This document shows, one piece after another, positions 32,831-42,781 of a stretch of 59,728 nt of DNA. How positions within the stretch are numbered: the first letter of the stretch is position 1; the number at the start of each line of letters is the position of its first letter. A model generated the notes under the pieces. The model saw only the letters and a program-made list of their open reading frames with translations, made no database searches and was not told the origin of the DNA. Made by a program: the position numbers and the translations under genes. This stretch comes from a virus: positions 1 through 59,728 of the IMG/VR virus record IMGVR_UViG_3300009104_000024. One strand, written 5' to 3'.

Positions 32831-35800
32831 ATGCAAAAAGTTAATCTGCCTGACGGAAGAACATTAAAAATTCCTAACGATTTATCTGCTGAAAAGCGAG
32901 ATGAGTTAGCTAATGCAGTTAAAGCAGAATATAACATTGACATTAATGAAGGTTCTTTAGGTGAATGGTTAATAGATAAACCTAAATCAGTAGTTAGAGG
33001 ATTATCGCAAATGATACCTACAGGAGTAAAAGGTATTGCTGGTTTAACATTAGGAAGCGATAGCGATATAGTTAAAGGCATATCTGATTATCAAAGATAT
33101 ATTGCTACAGAATCGCCATTAGCATCTGACCCTAAATATAGAGATACATTTGGAACAAAACTTTCTGAAGGTGCTGGTTCATTAATTGGTTTTGGTGGAC
33201 TTTCGTATGCAGGTAGAAGATTAGCAGCTAAGGGTGTATTGAGTGATAAAGCAGGTCGTTTTGGTGTTCCTGGTTCATTAGCTGTACCTATGGGCATGGG
33301 TGAACAAGTAGATAGATTGGAGCAATCTAGAGCGTTGGGAGAAGAATCACCAGGTTTTTTAGCTGAAAAAACAGCCATTCTTGCTGGTGGTGTTATAGGT
33401 TTAAGTGAATTAGCACCTTTAGAAAGATTGTTTAGAGGCATTCCCAAAAATGCTTTAAAGAATCCTACAGTACAACAGTTACTTAATACACGATTAAGGT
33501 CAGCGATAGCAACAGGAACTGCTGAAGCTATTCAAGAAGCTGGAGCTGGTGTATTACAAAACTTAACAGCAGCAGGATTATATAGTGATGAAATACCTAT
33601 ATTTGATAGTGCATTAGAAGAGTTTACTATTGGTGGCATTTTAGGAGCAAGTGCTGATTTACTTGTTAATAGTCTTGCCAACAGAAGAAGTATTAGCAGT
33701 CAGCAATTAAGGGATGCAGAAACGAAAGCTAGAGACAATAGAACTAGTCTTCAATCACAAGATAAATTTGCTAGAGCACAAGAGCAAGGAATGGTTGAAG
33801 AGTATCAAGAACCTATTATAAAAGAAAAACCTGAAATAGATGTTCCAGCTATTGTTGATGTAGCTCCACCTGATTTAGGAGTAATAGAAAATCCTGATGG
33901 TCAATTTTCAGTTGTTGATTATAACGACTTAGAAAATCCTATACTAAGCTCACACGCTACCGAAGTTGATGCTCTATTAGAAAAAAATAATCAACAAACA
34001 AATTACGAAAGGAAAGTTTTACAAGTACAAGTTGATAATGACACATACATGATGGGAATGCCTGATAGCGATTCAGCTAAAACATTAGGTAGAACTGTTC
34101 TTGACCCTAACATTACGCAAATAAATTTATCTACTTTAATAGGATATGATTCTTCTATTTCAGAAGATTTAAAAAAAGAATTAAATAAAGAAAAATCTGC
34201 CACATATCCAGCACAGCCATATAGGCAGATGCTTGAAAATAAAAGAAAGAATTTAGAAAAAACTGCTAAATATTTAGAAAGTAAAGGTTTAGATTTAAAA
34301 AGTAGTTTTTCAATGCCTGAAGCTAAAAAAGTTTTAAAGCCTAAAGACTATAATCTAATGTTAGAAAGTTTTGCTAATCATGCTTTTACTGCTTCTGAAA
34401 AAGCAGGTGAACCTTCTATAAGAGAAGATAAATTAGATGTAACAATAAAGAATATTAAAGCTATTGCTGAATCTAAAAATATAGAATTAGACTTTAAAGA
34501 CCCAGCAGTTCGTTATGCAGCAAAACAATGGACAGGTTTTGAAGATATACCTAAAACAAGAAACAGAGGTGCTAAAGAACTTTTCTTAGCCAGAATACAT
34601 TCTCTTCCTGCATTTAATAGTAAAACTAAATTTCCTGATTTTAGACCTAGAGCTTACACAGGTGTAGACATGGCTAACTTTGTGGCTTCTGCACAAGACA
34701 TACAATTTACTGATGCTGACTTATTGGTAGCTGGTCCTGAAAGTATTAGAAATAAACCAGAAAATGTTAAACAATTTTTAAATGATTTAATTGAAAGTGG
34801 TAGAGCTAAAAAAATAAAAAACACAAATAAATATGAATTAACTGATGACTTTGAATACACAGTCGCCAGAAGACAAGAAGGGTTTAATGAAACACCAGAT
34901 GAATTTCGTGCAAGATTAGAAAGAGATAGGTCATTAGGTAAAAATAAATTATCTGATGAAGCTATAGATAGTCTTGTTGCGTCTGAAGAAGTAAGGCAAG
35001 AAAAGGTATTGCCACCAAAAGAAATTGAGAAAAAACTTATAGACTTTAATGAAACAATTGAAGAAGGTCGTACAAATAAATTTGCTAAAGAGTTAAGGAA
35101 AAAACTAAATAAAGTAGGATTAAGAGACACAGGTATAGTTGTTAGTAATGATATTTTATCTACTACTACATTAGCCGAAACTGAAACTGGACAAATAATA
35201 TTTGACCCTAGAAAAACTAGAGAAACTGCTACAGAAGGTGCAGTAGAAGGAGAATACGATAGAGATACAGACATTATTTTCTTATCGCTTAACTCTGTAA
35301 ATCCTGATGGCACAGCTACTGATGAACAAATACTACAAAGGTTAGATAAGATTCTTGACCATGAAATGATTCATGCGTTTAGAAAGAAAGATTTAATTAC
35401 TGAAAAGGAATATCAATATTTAAGAAACGAAGTTAAACGTAAAAAAGTTCCTACTGAATATGATGCTTCCAGCAAGAATGAAACTTTTTACACTAGAAGT
35501 CAAAGAATTAATAGTGGCATGGTACGACAAGCCACATCAGAAGGTAGGGCAAAAGAAGAAATAGAAGAATTTTTAGTAGAAGAAGCTATAGCTGAAATGT
35601 ATAGAGCCAGGGAGTTCAAACCTGTTACACCAAAATCTAAAGGCATATTAAATAGAATAGTTGAGTTCTTTAAATCTATGGGTCAAGCCATGCGTGTATC
35701 AGGCTACAGAGATTCTTCTGAAATATTTGCTGATATAGAAAGAGGTAAAGTAGGAGCTAGAGAAAGAGGACAAATACGAACCTTGCAAGAGCTAGATAAA

Positions 35801-38800
35801 ATATCTATGGCTAGAGAACAAGGTATTGTTGGTGGGTTAGGCATAACGCCTTCTGCTGTGCCTGAAGAACCTCGTGGTGAGGATAAATTAGATACTTCTG
35901 ACCCTCAATCAATAGCAGATGAATGGGGTGAAGGTGTTTTAATTACTCCAACTGTATCTTTTAATGATGTTAAATCAGATACAGACCCTATAACAGGTGT
36001 TACGTTGCCTTTGGAAGCTAGACAAAGAGGGGGTTTATACAATAAATGGGAATTAACACCAGAAGAATATGAAGCTGATAGAAAACAAATTTTAGATGAA
36101 TTTTATAGACCAACTGGTATTGGTGATGGAATTGAAAATATTAAAAGTATAGAAGTATTAAAGTGGCTTAGTAAAAATGGACCAACAGAAGATTATAGAG
36201 TTATTGCCAATAGACTATTAGTTCAACAAAGAAAATTAAAAAGAATAGTTGGCATTGAGGGATACTTTGCAATATTTAATGATGAACACGGAGGAAAACA
36301 AAGATTTATTGGTAAAGGTACGGATTACCAAAGTTTTCTTGGTGTTTCATATGCACCTTTTTTAAATGATGGTAGTTATAATGTTAAAGATTATAATCCT
36401 TATGGCGATAGCAAATTAGTACAACAAGTATATTTAAAAGATACCTCTTACACATCTTCACCAGGTCATAATGGTGTAAGTTTTGATACTATGTTGCACG
36501 AATTAGTGCATCAAACTACACAAGCTGCTACTAATTTTTATAGAGGTAGTAGAGCAACTGAACAATCTAAAAAACTTGTAAAAGATTTAGAAGAAGTTAG
36601 AAAAGAATTAATAAAAGAAATTGAAAAAAGAACTGACACTAAAGGTTCTATTGTTGAGGGTCAATATGTCAATGAAGATGCTGAAAATAAATTAAAGAGT
36701 GAATTTGGACAAGACGGAGCAGCAAAAATAGTATATGCAGCAAGTAAAATACAAGAAACTTTAGCAGTTGGATTTACTAATAGATATGCTCAAGACTTTA
36801 TGGATAGTATTCCATATAAAGGAACTAAAAAAACTTTATGGGATAAGTTTACTGAATCAATAAGAAAGCTATTAAGTTTACCTGCTAAAACTAATAGTTT
36901 ATTTTCTGAATTTTTAAGGATAAGTGGAAAATTAACAAATTTATCTAACGCACAATTAGAAGAACTAAATAGAGTTGGTGCTGATTATGATTATGGTCCA
37001 CCTGTTGCTAGCCTTGAAATGTCCGACCCTTCTATAGAATCAGAACTTTCTGATTTAAGAAGAGAACTATATGATGCAGAAAGTTTAGAGTCTGCCGATA
37101 GAGGTTATGTAGATGTAGAGGTAGGCAATCGTAATATGAGAAGAGTACAAAATATAAGAAATAAAATTGAAAGACTTGAAGAACAATTAAAACGAGAAGC
37201 AGAATTAAAACAACCAGTCACACCAGAACAGTTGCCTTTATTTAGTAGAACTCAAAAAGATGAGAAAAAAATAAGAACTATAGCTAGAGAAAATAGAAAA
37301 AGATTAAAGGAAGAATACAAAAATGATCCTGATGCTGTAGATGAAATTATTAAAGAATTTGAAGGCGAAGAATTATTTAGTGATGGTAGTGGTTTTATAG
37401 AAGGAATTACTACAAATAGAGGATATATGGATGACATTCCCTTGTCTTTTTCTTCTGAAAGATTATCTAAAAAAGTATTAGAAGATTATGGTTATGAAGA
37501 AATATTTGAAGGAGAAATGTCATCAGAGTTAAGAGATAAAGATAATCAACAAAATTATTATGTAGATTTAGGACAGAATAAATTTAGAGTTTACTTTAAT
37601 CGTTATGGTAATAAAAGAAACCAAGCGACTATTACTAATCCTACTTTAGATGAGTTAATGAATGAATCATGGTTTGAAAAAGAACGTAGGTCTTCTGACA
37701 TTCCTTTATTTAGTAGAGGACCTAGAGATGAATCGTCAGGTCATTTAGCTGATTATGTGCCTGCAGAATATGGTCCACCTGCACATCAACTAGATATAGT
37801 ATATGGCGATGAAAAAACAAAAGATGGTTATTATCCAGTTAGTTATGGTTTTACATATCCTAAAACTTCTCCAGATTATAGAACAAGAGAATTTACAGTT
37901 TATAGCACAGCTAGAACACCACTAGAACAACAAGAAGAGCGTGAGTTTATAAATAAACTTATGGAAATAAGAGGCAATCCAAATGCAGAAATAACTATGT
38001 ATCAAGCTGCACCACAAAGAGATTTAAGAGAAGGAGATTTAATAACTCCATTTTTAAGTGAAGCTGAAGCTCTTGTAGAAGATTCTAAAGTTACACAACA
38101 AGAAATTAGAGAAGCAGATAGAGCTAGAAGAAGGCAAGAACAGATAGATAAAAAAGGTGCTGTAGATTTACAACAAGAAAGATTGTTTAATCAAATGGAA
38201 GGAATATCAGATATTCTTGGTAGACCTGAAGTTACTCCATCAACAATACATACTTTTAAATTAAAAGCAGGAGATGTTCGTTGGGATGGTAATAATGGTT
38301 GGGCAAGATGGGGTTACTTCCCAAGAATAAAAGCTGTAGAAGATTTACCTTTATTTAGTAGAGCTGCCACAGATACTAAGCCTCCATATATGGACTTTAA
38401 TCGTAAACAGATTAGGAATTTTAGTAGTAATAAAGTTGGTTTTTATGATGGAGTAGAAATACCTTTAACTCATGTTGCACGAATGCGAGTTGAAGATTTT
38501 TTAAAACTTACTACAGCCAATCAAGAGGTAATTGATAATATAATAACAGGAGGTCCAACAGTTGCTTTATCTTCAGAGCCTATGGGCTTACTTCCAGCTT
38601 CTATAAGAAATCCTGATGCTATATTTGACTCAGAAATAGCAGATACTGCAATAATTCCTTCATTACCAAATTTAGAAATTAGAGGAAATGGTCAAGTAAT
38701 TAGCCATGAAGGCAGACATAGAGTTGCATTAATAGGACAAGGAGGTGGTAGAACTGTTCCTGTATTTATAAATTTTCCTGAAGGTAATGTAGAACAAAAT

Positions 38801-41800
38801 ATACCTAATCCTAGTGGTCAAACTTTACAAGAACAAGGTGTTACTTTTTTAAGAAATCAGGAATTTAATAACTTTACTGTTCCTATAAATAGGTTAGGAG
38901 AAATTGCACCTTTACATAGAGATAGTGCCCAAACTAAAGATAAATTAGATTATGCAGTAGAGATTGCTAGTCAGCCTGACTTACTTGCACCCTCTGGAAA
39001 TATACCTTTATTTTCTAGGCAATCTAAAACACCTTCAATAAAAGAACTTCCTGGAGAAGTTTCTGAGTATCGTGATAATTACAATATAACAGATACAGAA
39101 TTACTAAATGCTATAGAAGCTACAGAAATGAGCAGAAAATCAGGAACAAGAGAAAATCCTGGTCAGTTAGATACTACTATAGTAGAAATATTTGAAAACA
39201 ATCCCAACCTTTTAGAAGCTAGTAAAAACTTTCTTAGAAAGTTTACTAATAAAAAAGGTAACTTAATTGTATACAGAGCTTTAAATATACCTGCCTCTAT
39301 GCGTATAAAAAACTATGGGCAGTTTCCTCAAGATATTTACGCAAGTGCAACTATAGACCATAGAGAAGCTAAACAAATAGCAAGTAGTGTAGAAATAAGG
39401 TCAAGAGCTAAAGAAGAAGCACAATCAGAAATACTTAGATTTGAAGTGCCAATGGATAGAGTAAAAGCTTATGTTCCATCTTTAATAGTGGCTGGTAGAG
39501 AGCGATTAATAGAGATGAAAGAACAAGAATTTATTGATGCAGGGATAGAAAGTGAAATGGATGAAGACTTTAATCCTGATGAATATAATGACTACACTAG
39601 AGAACAATACATAGAAGAATATGAAAATGATTTAGATGCTTCTATAGATGAAGCTGAAGTTTTAGTTGACTTACGAGGAATCAAACCAACTTATCAGTAC
39701 ACACCTGGTAGTGGTATAACAGGTAGAGAACCATCTATAACTAGAGATATACCTTTATTCTCAAGAGCCAGAAGATTTACAGGTGAAGCTAATACACAAG
39801 AAAAAGTAGCATTACAAAAGTCTACAGAAATAATTGAAGATTTTGTAAAGAAAACTCCTAGAGGTGAAATACCTTTATACAATACAAATGCCTCTGATGT
39901 TGCTTTAAAAGCTGCGTATGACTATATAAATGACCCTAGTGCTCCTACTATAAATGAACTTCCTAATTACTCTAGAGTTGAAAAAGAAATACCTGAAGAT
40001 TTACAAGGTGTAGTTAATAGAGGTGGGTATGTTGCTCCAAGGAAGCCTTGGTATGAAAGATTAATTAGTGATGTTTCTGACCCTGTAACTAATATTAGAA
40101 AGTTTTTTAAAGATACAAGACAAAACTATATTGATAAGTTAGATAAAGTAGAAAAGAAAATAGCACAAGGAAGTGAAGAGTTTGAAGAAGTAAGACTTTT
40201 AAATAATATAGCCGACACCTCTGCTATAGCTGCATTAAGAATGGCTGATAAAGCTAGAGGTATATTTCAAGGTATGCTTACAAGAGGATTTGCTACAGAT
40301 GTTATTGACGGAGAAGCTGCATTAACAACTACTGAAGAACTAGAAATAGATACAGTATATAACCCATACATTGATGGCGATACAGGTACTGGTGGTTTAT
40401 TACAAATTACTGCTCCTTTATTTTCTGACCCATTAGTAGATTTAGAAGGAATATTTGGAACATATGCCAAATTAAAAAGAGTTCAAGGATTTCAAAAACA
40501 AAATAGACAAGTTGAATCCCCTTTTACACAACAAGATTTAGAATTTATAAATAATATTGAAGCTAACTATCAAGTTGTTGTTGAGGTATATAACAACTAT
40601 CAAAAATGGAACAATAAATTAGTAGACTTTGCACAAGCTAAAGGCTTATTAAATGAAGCACAAGCTACAAAATGGAGAGAAGAATCAACTTACTATCCTT
40701 TTTATAGAGATATGGTTGAAGAAGAGGGTATAACTGCACCAAGAATAGGTGGTGGTTCTTTACCTAATAACCCATTAAATTTAAAACTTAAAGGTTCTGA
40801 AGCAGAAATAAATGTTTCTCCATTAGAAGCTATAGCAAGAAACTCTTTGTCTATTCTTACTGCTTCCATGAAAAATGACGGAGCAACAAAGTTAATAGAA
40901 AGTTTAGCAATTATGGGTGAAGCAGAATACATCACCCCACAACAATTAAAAAATAAACAAGGTGCAAAAACTATATTTGTTTTTGAAAATGGATTTAAAA
41001 AACACTACAACATAGAAGACCCTGATTTATTCCATAGTATCAGAGCATTAGGTGGAGCAGAAGTTGGATTTATAACTAAACTTTTAGCTATGCCAGCTAC
41101 GTTATTAAGAGATACAGTAACTCGTGACCCTGGATTTATAGCAGTAAACTTACTTAGAGATACGCTATCTGCAACTGTAACATCAGGTGTTAATTTATCA
41201 TCACCTTTTACAGGTGGTGATGGATTTGTGCCAATGATAGATACCATTAAAAATATGTTTGGCGACATGACAGACTTAGAAAAGTTTGGTGTTATTGGTG
41301 GATATGATTTCGCTAATGACGAAGGTGATGTTGTTGACTATATGGCACGAATAAGAAGACAACAAGGTCTTACGGCTAACAATGGTATGTCAGCAGAAAA
41401 AGCTTTCTTTTATGTTTGGGATGGTCTTGGTGGACTAACAACAAAATCTGATGGAGCTACTCGTAAAGGTGTGTTTGATGCAGTTTATAAACGCATGAAA
41501 AACACTATTGATGAAAGAACAGGTGAAGTTTACACAGATGCAGCAGCACAATCAGAAGCAGCTTTTCAATCCTTAGAGGTTATAAACTTTGGTCGTAGAG
41601 GACTATCACCAATGTTTAGAGTTATTACGTCTGCAATACCTTTTTTAAACGCTAGAATACAAGGTCTTGACGTTATATACAGGTCATTTAGAGGAACGTA
41701 TTCAGCACAAGATAAACTACAAGAAGGTGAAACTTTAGATGAATTAAAGAACAGAATAATGCGAAGAACTGCATTGAGAGGTGGAACTATTATGGCTTCT

Positions 41801-42781
41801 ACCTTAATTTACTATCTATTAGTTAGTGATACAGAAGAATACAAGGAAGCCAAGAGAGAACTAAGAGATGACAATTGGTTGATACCAACTCCATTTGATT
41901 ACACATTAAAAGTTCCTATTCCTTTTGAGATTGGAATGATGTTTAAGGCACTACCTGAGAGGTTCATAGACCTCGTTCTAGGAGAGAAAGTGTTAGGACT
42001 AAAGGAATCAGTAGAGAAAGACCCTATCGAGTCTATAAGGAGGCAATTAGGAACTTCTGCAAACATACCTTTCTTATCAGGTGACATCAGCATACAAGCA
42101 TTAAAGCCTATTTTTGAAGCTACAATTAATAGAAATTCTTTTACAGGTCAAGAAATTGTTCCTTACTATAAGCTGAAGAGAGAGCCAGGTTATCAAGCAT
42201 CTCCACAAACTAATGAACTAGCTAGAGTTATCGGTGAAGCCTTAAATATTTCACCAACTAAAATTGAGCACGTTATCAATGGATATACAGGAACACTCGG
42301 AGGTTATGTGTTGGATATTGTGGATTCACTAACTAGAACTGCAACAGGTTCTCCATACATACCAAATAATATTTTTAGTAACCCAACTAACTTTGCCCAA
42401 TACCCATTAATTAAAAGACTGGTCGTGGATAATAAAAAAATGGGAGGGTTGCAACAACAGTTCTATGAACTTAGAGGTGAGGTAGATAGAGCCGTTACGA
42501 CTATGAATAGTCTTAAACAAGAAAAAAGGTTTGATGAACTCAGAGCTTATAAGTCTGATGTAAAAGGCTTAATGAATGTCAAAGGCAGAGTAAGAGCAAT
42601 GGAAAGATACTTGGACAATTGGAGGAAGAGAAGAGATAGATTGATGCGTAGGACTGATATATCGGTTATGGTTAAAGCAGAAATGATTCAAGACTTAGAA
42701 GCAGAAAGAGATAAGCGTTTAGCGTTTATACCTGAACTAAGGAAGAAAGCTAACGTGCCTATCCTCCAGGGAGGACTGTAA
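32831..42781 (+). CDS. Giant polyvalent internal virion protein (3316 aa)
   Basis: Modular protein probably injected with DNA. N-terminus KVNLPDGRTLKIPNDLSAEK is a common internal-protein start. Zincin 1: HEMIH at 844-848 with later EEAIAEMY. Zincin 2: HELVH at 1223-1227. Then come five [LI]PLFSR motifs (1468, 1624, 1839, 2058 and 2307). Between them lie a degenerate ADP-ribosyltransferase-like module (Q1725, W1818), a ParB-like module (HEGRHR at 1959-1964) and an ART-like module with R2149, S2172-T2174 and E2274/E2276. Residues about 2650-3316 are helical and resemble the LPD38-type polyvalent domain. It overlaps the convergent minus-strand gene by 45 bp. Confidence 0.75.
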   Translation: MQKVNLPDGRTLKIPNDLSAEKRDELANAVKAEYNIDINEGSLGEWLIDKPKSVVRGLSQMIPTGVKGIAGLTLGSDSDIVKGISDYQRYIATESPLASDPKYRDTFGTKLSEGAGSLIGFGGLSYAGRRLAAKGVLSDKAGRFGVPGSLAVPMGMGEQVDRLEQSRALGEESPGFLAEKTAILAGGVIGLSELAPLERLFRGIPKNALKNPTVQQLLNTRLRSAIATGTAEAIQEAGAGVLQNLTAAGLYSDEIPIFDSALEEFTIGGILGASADLLVNSLANRRSISSQQLRDAETKARDNRTSLQSQDKFARAQEQGMVEEYQEPIIKEKPEIDVPAIVDVAPPDLGVIENPDGQFSVVDYNDLENPILSSHATEVDALLEKNNQQTNYERKVLQVQVDNDTYMMGMPDSDSAKTLGRTVLDPNITQINLSTLIGYDSSISEDLKKELNKEKSATYPAQPYRQMLENKRKNLEKTAKYLESKGLDLKSSFSMPEAKKVLKPKDYNLMLESFANHAFTASEKAGEPSIREDKLDVTIKNIKAIAESKNIELDFKDPAVRYAAKQWTGFEDIPKTRNRGAKELFLARIHSLPAFNSKTKFPDFRPRAYTGVDMANFVASAQDIQFTDADLLVAGPESIRNKPENVKQFLNDLIESGRAKKIKNTNKYELTDDFEYTVARRQEGFNETPDEFRARLERDRSLGKNKLSDEAIDSLVASEEVRQEKVLPPKEIEKKLIDFNETIEEGRTNKFAKELRKKLNKVGLRDTGIVVSNDILSTTTLAETETGQIIFDPRKTRETATEGAVEGEYDRDTDIIFLSLNSVNPDGTATDEQILQRLDKILDHEMIHAFRKKDLITEKEYQYLRNEVKRKKVPTEYDASSKNETFYTRSQRINSGMVRQATSEGRAKEEIEEFLVEEAIAEMYRAREFKPVTPKSKGILNRIVEFFKSMGQAMRVSGYRDSSEIFADIERGKVGARERGQIRTLQELDKISMAREQGIVGGLGITPSAVPEEPRGEDKLDTSDPQSIADEWGEGVLITPTVSFNDVKSDTDPITGVTLPLEARQRGGLYNKWELTPEEYEADRKQILDEFYRPTGIGDGIENIKSIEVLKWLSKNGPTEDYRVIANRLLVQQRKLKRIVGIEGYFAIFNDEHGGKQRFIGKGTDYQSFLGVSYAPFLNDGSYNVKDYNPYGDSKLVQQVYLKDTSYTSSPGHNGVSFDTMLHELVHQTTQAATNFYRGSRATEQSKKLVKDLEEVRKELIKEIEKRTDTKGSIVEGQYVNEDAENKLKSEFGQDGAAKIVYAASKIQETLAVGFTNRYAQDFMDSIPYKGTKKTLWDKFTESIRKLLSLPAKTNSLFSEFLRISGKLTNLSNAQLEELNRVGADYDYGPPVASLEMSDPSIESELSDLRRELYDAESLESADRGYVDVEVGNRNMRRVQNIRNKIERLEEQLKREAELKQPVTPEQLPLFSRTQKDEKKIRTIARENRKRLKEEYKNDPDAVDEIIKEFEGEELFSDGSGFIEGITTNRGYMDDIPLSFSSERLSKKVLEDYGYEEIFEGEMSSELRDKDNQQNYYVDLGQNKFRVYFNRYGNKRNQATITNPTLDELMNESWFEKERRSSDIPLFSRGPRDESSGHLADYVPAEYGPPAHQLDIVYGDEKTKDGYYPVSYGFTYPKTSPDYRTREFTVYSTARTPLEQQEEREFINKLMEIRGNPNAEITMYQAAPQRDLREGDLITPFLSEAEALVEDSKVTQQEIREADRARRRQEQIDKKGAVDLQQERLFNQMEGISDILGRPEVTPSTIHTFKLKAGDVRWDGNNGWARWGYFPRIKAVEDLPLFSRAATDTKPPYMDFNRKQIRNFSSNKVGFYDGVEIPLTHVARMRVEDFLKLTTANQEVIDNIITGGPTVALSSEPMGLLPASIRNPDAIFDSEIADTAIIPSLPNLEIRGNGQVISHEGRHRVALIGQGGGRTVPVFINFPEGNVEQNIPNPSGQTLQEQGVTFLRNQEFNNFTVPINRLGEIAPLHRDSAQTKDKLDYAVEIASQPDLLAPSGNIPLFSRQSKTPSIKELPGEVSEYRDNYNITDTELLNAIEATEMSRKSGTRENPGQLDTTIVEIFENNPNLLEASKNFLRKFTNKKGNLIVYRALNIPASMRIKNYGQFPQDIYASATIDHREAKQIASSVEIRSRAKEEAQSEILRFEVPMDRVKAYVPSLIVAGRERLIEMKEQEFIDAGIESEMDEDFNPDEYNDYTREQYIEEYENDLDASIDEAEVLVDLRGIKPTYQYTPGSGITGREPSITRDIPLFSRARRFTGEANTQEKVALQKSTEIIEDFVKKTPRGEIPLYNTNASDVALKAAYDYINDPSAPTINELPNYSRVEKEIPEDLQGVVNRGGYVAPRKPWYERLISDVSDPVTNIRKFFKDTRQNYIDKLDKVEKKIAQGSEEFEEVRLLNNIADTSAIAALRMADKARGIFQGMLTRGFATDVIDGEAALTTTEELEIDTVYNPYIDGDTGTGGLLQITAPLFSDPLVDLEGIFGTYAKLKRVQGFQKQNRQVESPFTQQDLEFINNIEANYQVVVEVYNNYQKWNNKLVDFAQAKGLLNEAQATKWREESTYYPFYRDMVEEEGITAPRIGGGSLPNNPLNLKLKGSEAEINVSPLEAIARNSLSILTASMKNDGATKLIESLAIMGEAEYITPQQLKNKQGAKTIFVFENGFKKHYNIEDPDLFHSIRALGGAEVGFITKLLAMPATLLRDTVTRDPGFIAVNLLRDTLSATVTSGVNLSSPFTGGDGFVPMIDTIKNMFGDMTDLEKFGVIGGYDFANDEGDVVDYMARIRRQQGLTANNGMSAEKAFFYVWDGLGGLTTKSDGATRKGVFDAVYKRMKNTIDERTGEVYTDAAAQSEAAFQSLEVINFGRRGLSPMFRVITSAIPFLNARIQGLDVIYRSFRGTYSAQDKLQEGETLDELKNRIMRRTALRGGTIMASTLIYYLLVSDTEEYKEAKRELRDDNWLIPTPFDYTLKVPIPFEIGMMFKALPERFIDLVLGEKVLGLKESVEKDPIESIRRQLGTSANIPFLSGDISIQALKPIFEATINRNSFTGQEIVPYYKLKREPGYQASPQTNELARVIGEALNISPTKIEHVINGYTGTLGGYVLDIVDSLTRTATGSPYIPNNIFSNPTNFAQYPLIKRLVVDNKKMGGLQQQFYELRGEVDRAVTTMNSLKQEKRFDELRAYKSDVKGLMNVKGRVRAMERYLDNWRKRRDRLMRRTDISVMVKAEMIQDLEAERDKRLAFIPELRKKANVPILQGGL
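37232..39766 (+). repeat. Five [LI]PLFSR boundary motifs in the giant protein
   Basis: The hexapeptide starts at nt 37232, 37700, 38345, 39002 and 39749 (residues 1468, 1624, 1839, 2058, 2307), with spacings of 156, 215, 219 and 249 residues. The first three share CCTTTATTTAGTAGA. The last two encode the same residues with other codons (TCTAGG, TCAAGA), so the peptide rather than the DNA is conserved. Each is preceded by an acidic or short flexible stretch and followed by polar residues, like protease-accessible linkers. Confidence 0.85.

Follow-up and report, generated by a model that had tools for sequence, protein, structure and literature searches.

What does a short peptide do when it recurs between the domains of a giant phage protein? 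The question is raised by IMG/VR virus record IMGVR_UViG_3300009104_000024, a stretch of 59,728 nucleotides that was analyzed whole and is called the window below. Its plus strand, to which all coordinates given here refer, encodes a polyvalent protein of 3316 residues (32831..42781) with a C-terminal LPD38 domain (PF18857, 2.3e-29 at residues 3002-3173; 103.3 bits, against a curated cut-off of 27). A preliminary description of this DNA had noticed copies of the hexapeptide [LI]PLFSR in the protein and proposed a processing or linker site that releases individual effectors after injection. Beyond that description, we find a sixth motif, exchange of modules at the motif and a link between the motif and one of two HEXXH domains in the same chain, MPTase1. 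We regard the protein as probably a self-processing modular cargo protein, in which MPTase1 would cut at or next to the motif and free the modules.

The motif bounds exchangeable modules

A six-frame scan recovered all five reported copies of [LI]PLFSR, each inside the polyvalent open reading frame (ORF): LPLFSR at residue 1468 (37232..37249), which forms the left anchor in the context PEQLPLFSR, IPLFSR at 1624 (37700..37717), LPLFSR at 1839 (38345..38362), and IPLFSR at 2058 (39002..39019) and 2307 (39749..39766). Their start-to-start distances of 156, 215, 219 and 249 residues agree with the reported spacing of about 155-250. The set itself was incomplete, as a sixth copy, LPNYSR at residues 2377-2382 (39959..39976), had been overlooked. 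This right anchor is conserved in relatives and is orthologous to their IPNYSR, IPKFSR, IPTFSR or IPNFSR. Five copies of [LI]PLFSR compare with 0.0005 per shuffled protein, and six copies of [LIVM]Px[FYW]S[RK], hereafter the strict motif, compare with 0.02 by shuffling. In a predicted model of residues 1440-2400 (mean predicted local distance difference test score, pLDDT, 66), the five PLFSR copies all lie in coil between modules, as expected of linkers, with pLDDT below 50. The sixth scores about 48-60, modules m2 to m4 about 85-95 and m1 about 65. The other rows of the folding alignment were trimmed of motifs, which lowers both alignment depth and confidence at the motif sites, and m1 was poorly aligned.

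The motif is a family trait. Relatives of the window protein were taken from IMG/VR contigs, and the resulting 90 family proteins were reduced to 46 non-redundant ones at 95% identity (114,780 residues). These contain 123 strict motifs, compared with about 0.9 in shuffles, while permuted patterns reach at best 16 matches in the same proteins (median 0). The strict motif is absent from 25 other LPD38 proteins, drawn from 11 of 51 matched phage records (named phages) and 14 of 20 distinct bacterial-genome matches; it therefore belongs to this phage family and not to LPD38 proteins generally. Nor is it equally frequent in unrelated proteins. Among 159 other ORFs of the same contigs (100,485 residues), three carry it, and one of these, L053, is a truncated family member. 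Setting L053 aside leaves two copies in 158 ORFs, both in upstream ORFs with the sequence ADVTIPDFSR or ADVKIPDFSK (contig L001, ORF at 2, residue 200; contig L099, ORF at 2, residue 47). The L001 copy sits in a proline-rich stretch. An upstream ORF with IPDFSR or IPDFSK is a possible second substrate.

Similar peptides were sought more widely. A general [IV]RFSR-like linker in polyvalent proteins, which had been expected, was rejected, with the FSR core occurring 36 times in the 25 other LPD38 proteins against a permutation mean of 31. One bacterial-genome LPD38 protein, L126, has DVRFSL, EPRFSL and DIRFSL at residues 2119, 2403 and 2674, the last two flanking an ART-PolyVal match; these xRFSL peptides are perhaps a parallel joint motif of another lineage. 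An Azospirillum locus with LAMFSR, met in the second genome scan, was not counted as a joint motif, and tblastn with this locus against phages and plasmids gave no matches. The A3 scan and the first genome scan gave nothing useful, and tblastn of the middle region of the window protein against phages returned only matches of E 5 and above.

The segments between motifs behave as units. When the 46 proteins are divided at motifs, strict or near-strict, 99 modules of 21 families result, in 29 distinct arrays, a few single-member families (e.g., Q, S and U) stemming from relaxed matches outside the array or from lost joints. The window array reads I-C-D-B-A: m1 (family I, 150 residues, 37250..37699, fold not assigned), m2 (C, 209 residues, 37718..38344), m3 (D, 213 residues, 38363..39001), m4 (B, 243 residues, 39020..39748) and the near-constant right-hand module m5 (A, 64 residues, 39767..39958). 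Its sisters L063, L064 and L066 read B-A, H-A and D-A. Module m2 follows MPTase1 directly in some relatives, and others have it further along the chain; in the ten relatives listed, a motif or near-motif stands on both sides of it.

In all-against-all comparison of the first nine proteins, alignable stretches start and stop at or near motifs. Counted as local alignment ends, which are not independent of one another, 411 of 824 fall within 10 residues of a relaxed motif (200 null draws gave a mean of 118 and a maximum of 141). L063 and L064 (labeled L004 and L005 in the flank and nine-protein comparisons) are 97-100% identical in both flanks, yet the modules that their two shared motifs enclose are unrelated; in the DNA, divergence begins within a few bases after the left motif and ends within a few bases before the right one. 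The motifs thus bound exchangeable modules.

Loss of the motif with the MPTase1 active site

MPTase1, a putative zincin-like metallopeptidase domain, occupies residues 780-960 of the window protein (35168..35710). Its putative zinc and catalytic motif is HEMIH at residues 844-848 (35360..35374), followed by a downstream glutamate helix, EEAIAE, at 917-922; in a predicted model HEMIH lies in a helix with pLDDT about 76-82, the wider surroundings of the site scoring about 74-87. The second HEXXH domain, MPTase2 (36341..36820), has HELVH at residues 1223-1227. Residues about 314-615 of its model resemble the zincin domain of anthrax lethal factor (five entries, Z 6.2-6.8), a middling match.

Leaving aside the partial proteins L048, L096, L102 and L104, whose MPTase1 is not readable, we could score 42 of the 46 proteins. 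HEXXH is intact in 37, and 35 of these contain the strict motif; L034 has the variant TPLFSR. In the other five the site is destroyed, reading AQVIH in L105 and L106, GQVIH in L100, GQIIH in L094 and KEVVS in L086, and EEAIAE is altered as well in each. None of these five has a motif by the strict or the relaxed pattern.

The same pattern holds at homologous positions. We compared the joints flanking m5 in 45 aligned rows (L016, which has no m5 match, was left out). Among 36 rows with an intact MPTase1, the strict motif is present left of m5 in 25 and right of it in 32, as opposed to none of the five dead rows at either joint. The dead rows still align here: PEQLPLFSR has become PEQRDLFSP, PEQKDLFIP or PEQKDLFNA, and in place of the right anchor stands KLPELKM, KLPELNM, KLTELNM, KMPVNES or DVSGFNE.

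A lack of modules does not explain the loss of the motif. In L009, L072, L078-L080 and L083, m5 is the only module, and these proteins keep both an intact MPTase1 and their motifs, while L086 retains module m1 and has lost the motifs at its borders along with the MPTase1 residues. Module m1 is still 48% identical in L086 (residues 1123-1270), and so a module can persist without release sites.

The second HEXXH domain provides a further comparison. The five proteins with a dead MPTase1 and no motif have all kept an intact MPTase2. Conversely, seven proteins have an intact MPTase1 but no MPTase2 that BLAST detects, and in six of the seven there are strict or variant motifs; all 30 proteins in which both domains were found have motifs. 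By sequence comparison, the motif tracks MPTase1, not MPTase2. Six further non-redundant proteins with a relative of m3 have no detectable MPTase1 homologue and no motif, and five of the six have other HEXXH stretches.

These comparisons bear on an alternative explanation, that the motif is cut by another protease, of the phage prohead or of the host. A precedent exists in P1 DarA, from which the prohead protease Pro removes an N-terminal piece (PMC12810830). For the window family, the link with the MPTase1 residues would then be a coincidence. Furthermore, the nine window ORFs scanned include no separate protease gene, although the head protein weakly matches combined head/protease families. 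Cutting by another protease is, in our judgment, the least probable of the alternatives weighed here.

Release peptide, recombination seam or docking tag

Several observations weigh against self-processing by MPTase1. The most distant member, L016, has HETIH and no motif. Strict motifs are missing left of m5 in 11 of the 36 intact rows, two of which read LALFSR or ISTFSR, and at the right anchor in four (DIPTFSI, DIPTFSV, DIPTFLK and IPRRFNR), so not every joint is fitted with the peptide. The protease nature of MPTase1 is itself putative. The domain has no Pfam or NCBIfam family, no PDB match by sequence and no significant structural match, and tblastn against phages gave no useful matches; its zincin nature thus rests on HEXXH, the downstream glutamate motif and the helix pattern. 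The loss events are also few. In a C-terminal tree the five dead proteins fall into two groups and a single clade is rejected (p-AU 0.0007), whereas the MPTase1-domain tree, with L086 on a long branch, does not reject a single clade (p 0.51). L016 and L034 were left out of the single-clade test trees, and L097 is not in the first C-terminal tree. Two losses are favored because the lesions differ, with A/G-Q and the second histidine kept in one group and K-E with the second histidine lost in the other, but a sign test on two events has no chance of significance. A search for further relatives with a dead MPTase1 returned only contigs already in the set. The co-loss draws its strength from the erosion of several sites in each protein and from the controls: the m5-only proteins, L086 and MPTase2.

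The last of these points concerns codons. Proline is encoded by CCT in 109 of the 123 motifs, compared with 53.5% by codon usage, and arginine by AGR only, never CGN. Codon usage would thus predict more variety than the motifs show, a sign of shared descent as DNA besides selection on the peptide. Serine behaves differently, with AGY in 66 copies and TCN in 57, and the 123 copies comprise 55 distinct 18-mers, a diversity that calls for either selection on the peptide or repeated origin. In the window, copies 4 (TTT TCT AGG for FSR) and 5 (TTC TCA AGA) indeed differ from copies 1-3 (TTT AGT AGA), as had been reported. The conclusion drawn from this difference, that selection is on the peptide, stands only in part: the mixed serine codons fit it, while the uniform CCT and AGR also indicate spread as DNA. 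Both appear to be true.

Could the repeat be a recombination seam and nothing else, 18 bp of homology for module swaps encoding a functionless peptide? The abrupt DNA divergence a few bases from the motif in the one pair compared (L063 and L064), the excess of CCT and AGR codons and the clustering of alignment ends at motifs would all follow. A bare seam, however, does not account for serine codons of both classes or for so many distinct 18-mers (with P and S fixed by the pattern itself). Nor does it explain why the right anchor, past the variable modules, keeps the strict motif in 32 of 36 intact rows, or why the motif should vanish together with the MPTase1 active site. We therefore think it unlikely that the sequence is a seam only.

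The residue profile of the motif bears on another explanation, that the peptide is a docking or packaging tag, which binds a virion or host protein, for example during head entry or ejection, and stays uncut. The profile was built from strict matches, so that the pattern itself dictates P, [FYW], S and [RK]; the informative features are position -1, the choices at positions 1 and 3 and the outer fall-off. Of 113 distinct strict-match contexts, 112 have D, Q, E or N at position -1; L, T and N prevail at position 3, and conservation drops beyond about seven residues. Such a short conserved peptide in predicted disordered linkers could be a ligand, and at the left anchor there is a likeness to QLxLF, the bacterial beta-clamp motif. 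That motif does not include S-R, though, and Q occupies position -1 in only 19 of the 113 contexts; on this profile we rejected beta-clamp binding via QLPLF as the principal explanation. A tag also leaves unexplained why the peptide stands at most module borders, not once per protein, and why it is lost together with a peptidase-like active site. We give an uncut tag a small chance, slightly below that of the seam.

We therefore return to self-processing. Of what had first been proposed, a processing or linker site is the best-supported reading, given the coil linkers, the rarity of the motif elsewhere and its absence from all five relatives with a dead MPTase1; cleavage itself is a prediction, and so is any release of effectors after injection. 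In the mechanism we envisage, a fixed N-terminal part carries the metallopeptidase-like MPTase1, followed by a variable middle of 0 to about four exchangeable modules plus the near-constant 64-residue module, and then by a fixed C-terminal part with LPD38. At most joints, a linker predicted to be flexible bears [DQEN][IVL]P[LTN][FYW]S[RK]. This joint peptide, or a bond beside it, is most likely where MPTase1 cuts, which would free an enzyme of ADP-ribosyltransferase (ART) fold and a ParB-like domain, among others. What the comparisons show is the motif, its enrichment, the exchange of modules at it and its loss along with MPTase1; the protease activity of MPTase1, its cutting at this peptide and the time and place of the cut are inferred. 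The joint sequence is also the seam for module swaps between phages, so that an incoming module would come already fitted with release sites. We propose more tentatively, as a possibility just short of an even chance, an intragenic cassette system in which this sequence of about 18 bp is both the exchange seam for effector modules and the in-frame recognition site of the protein's own metallopeptidase; a captured module would then be released automatically, and protease and code would evolve and decay together.

Cargo and related systems

The preliminary description had assigned each gap between motifs a different small domain, among them ART-like and ParB-like ones. This is borne out in part, and best for gap 4; the degenerate ART-like domain proposed for gap 2 is a candidate. 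Module m4 (residues 2064-2306) most likely has an ART fold, judging from its model: structural neighbors ranked 1-20 by VIA-align are all ADP-ribosylating toxins or Tpt1/KptA entries (Z 5.9-7.5). The best match aligns 127 residues at a root-mean-square deviation of 3.1; matches lie mostly over residues about 2136-2308, and all have Z below 8. The residues we take to define the ART class, R, an S-T-S-like element and E-x-E, correspond to R2149, the S and second T-position of YASAT (2170-2174) and the E-x-E of DEAEV (2273-2277), in columns invariant in four of four relatives. Gap 3, module m3, is less clear, with a conserved HEGRHR and weak ParB-like matches. No Pfam family scored above the cut-off for any gap between motifs, Pfam and NCBIfam searches assigned no family to the modules, and Foldseek against the PDB gave nothing under E 0.001 for either model, m4 included. 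Module m4 also resembles a chain in the pre-ejectosome of cyanophage A4 (9k3a, Z 5.0). This likeness between model and structure hints at ART-like domains among the ejected proteins of phages.

The window is phage DNA, as four of the nine ORFs scanned have matches in terminase, portal, major head protein and tail spike or fiber families. The ORF two genes upstream of the polyvalent gene weakly matches a DNA-ejection family. By analogy with its protein class, and from gene order, the window protein may be ejected with the DNA. No close DNA relative of the window was found in the phage collection searched. A contig binned with a Pelagibacter genome (L111, NZIO01000027.1) encodes a family member with a module array, which is only a hint at the hosts of these phages.

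In the Pfam scan of the whole chain, LPD38 was the sole family at E 0.1, no search being aimed at cysteine protease or RTX repeats. The chain nevertheless combines several enzymatic or nucleic-acid-binding domains: the probable ART fold of m4, two HEXXH domains and the weakly ParB-like m3. In this it resembles the polyvalent proteins described by Iyer et al. (2017; PMC5512222), giant multidomain phage proteins with LPD38 in which MPTase, ART and DdrB-ParB domains occur. Those authors predicted a processing of polyvalent proteins by the MPTases that they contain, at a stage before packaging, inside the head or following injection. The window family differs from that description in its defined, repeated joint peptide, in the link of one of two HEXXH domains to this peptide and in the exchange of modules there; the main text of PMC5512222 contains no words beginning "FSR," "linker" or "shuffl" and no phrase "processing site." A full-text literature search for PLFSR returned matches unrelated by title and abstract, a search for large polyvalent protein with phage and metallopeptidase returned nothing beyond PMC5512222, and one for polyvalent protein with proteolytic, phage, capsid and ejection had no matches. 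In the literature searched, we found no cleavage code, cut site or module seam of polyvalent proteins.

The closest working analogue appears to be the MARTX toxins, in which effector modules of one chain are released by an in-chain CPD autoprotease that cuts between them (PMC6315884). Both have several effector modules and a protease or protease-like domain in the same chain. The MARTX protease, as described there, is a cysteine protease activated by inositol hexakisphosphate (InsP6), in a secreted toxin of cellular bacteria, whereas here a HEXXH-type domain and a conserved joint peptide occur in a phage protein. We suggest that the window family may be a phage analogue of MARTX effector arrays, in the sense of working alike and with no claim of sequence relation, a likeness that the co-loss supports. 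Among phage proteins, P1 DarA and DdrB are likewise internal head proteins; proteolytic processing is reported for these P1 proteins and predicted here, and the Dar proteins are ejected with DNA (PMC5512222; PMC12810830). Unlike for the window family, no repeated motif is described for DarA or DdrB in the accounts given by these two sources. RNA virus polyproteins, to which PMC5512222 draws an analogy, also release their parts by embedded proteases; here, by contrast, phages exchange modules among themselves, and a protein can lack the array.

A short repeated code that is lost together with one peptidase-like active site makes the processing prediction of 2017 directly testable. If self-processing is true, the motif marks the borders of modules, and phage effectors could then be separated from giant proteins and tested singly.

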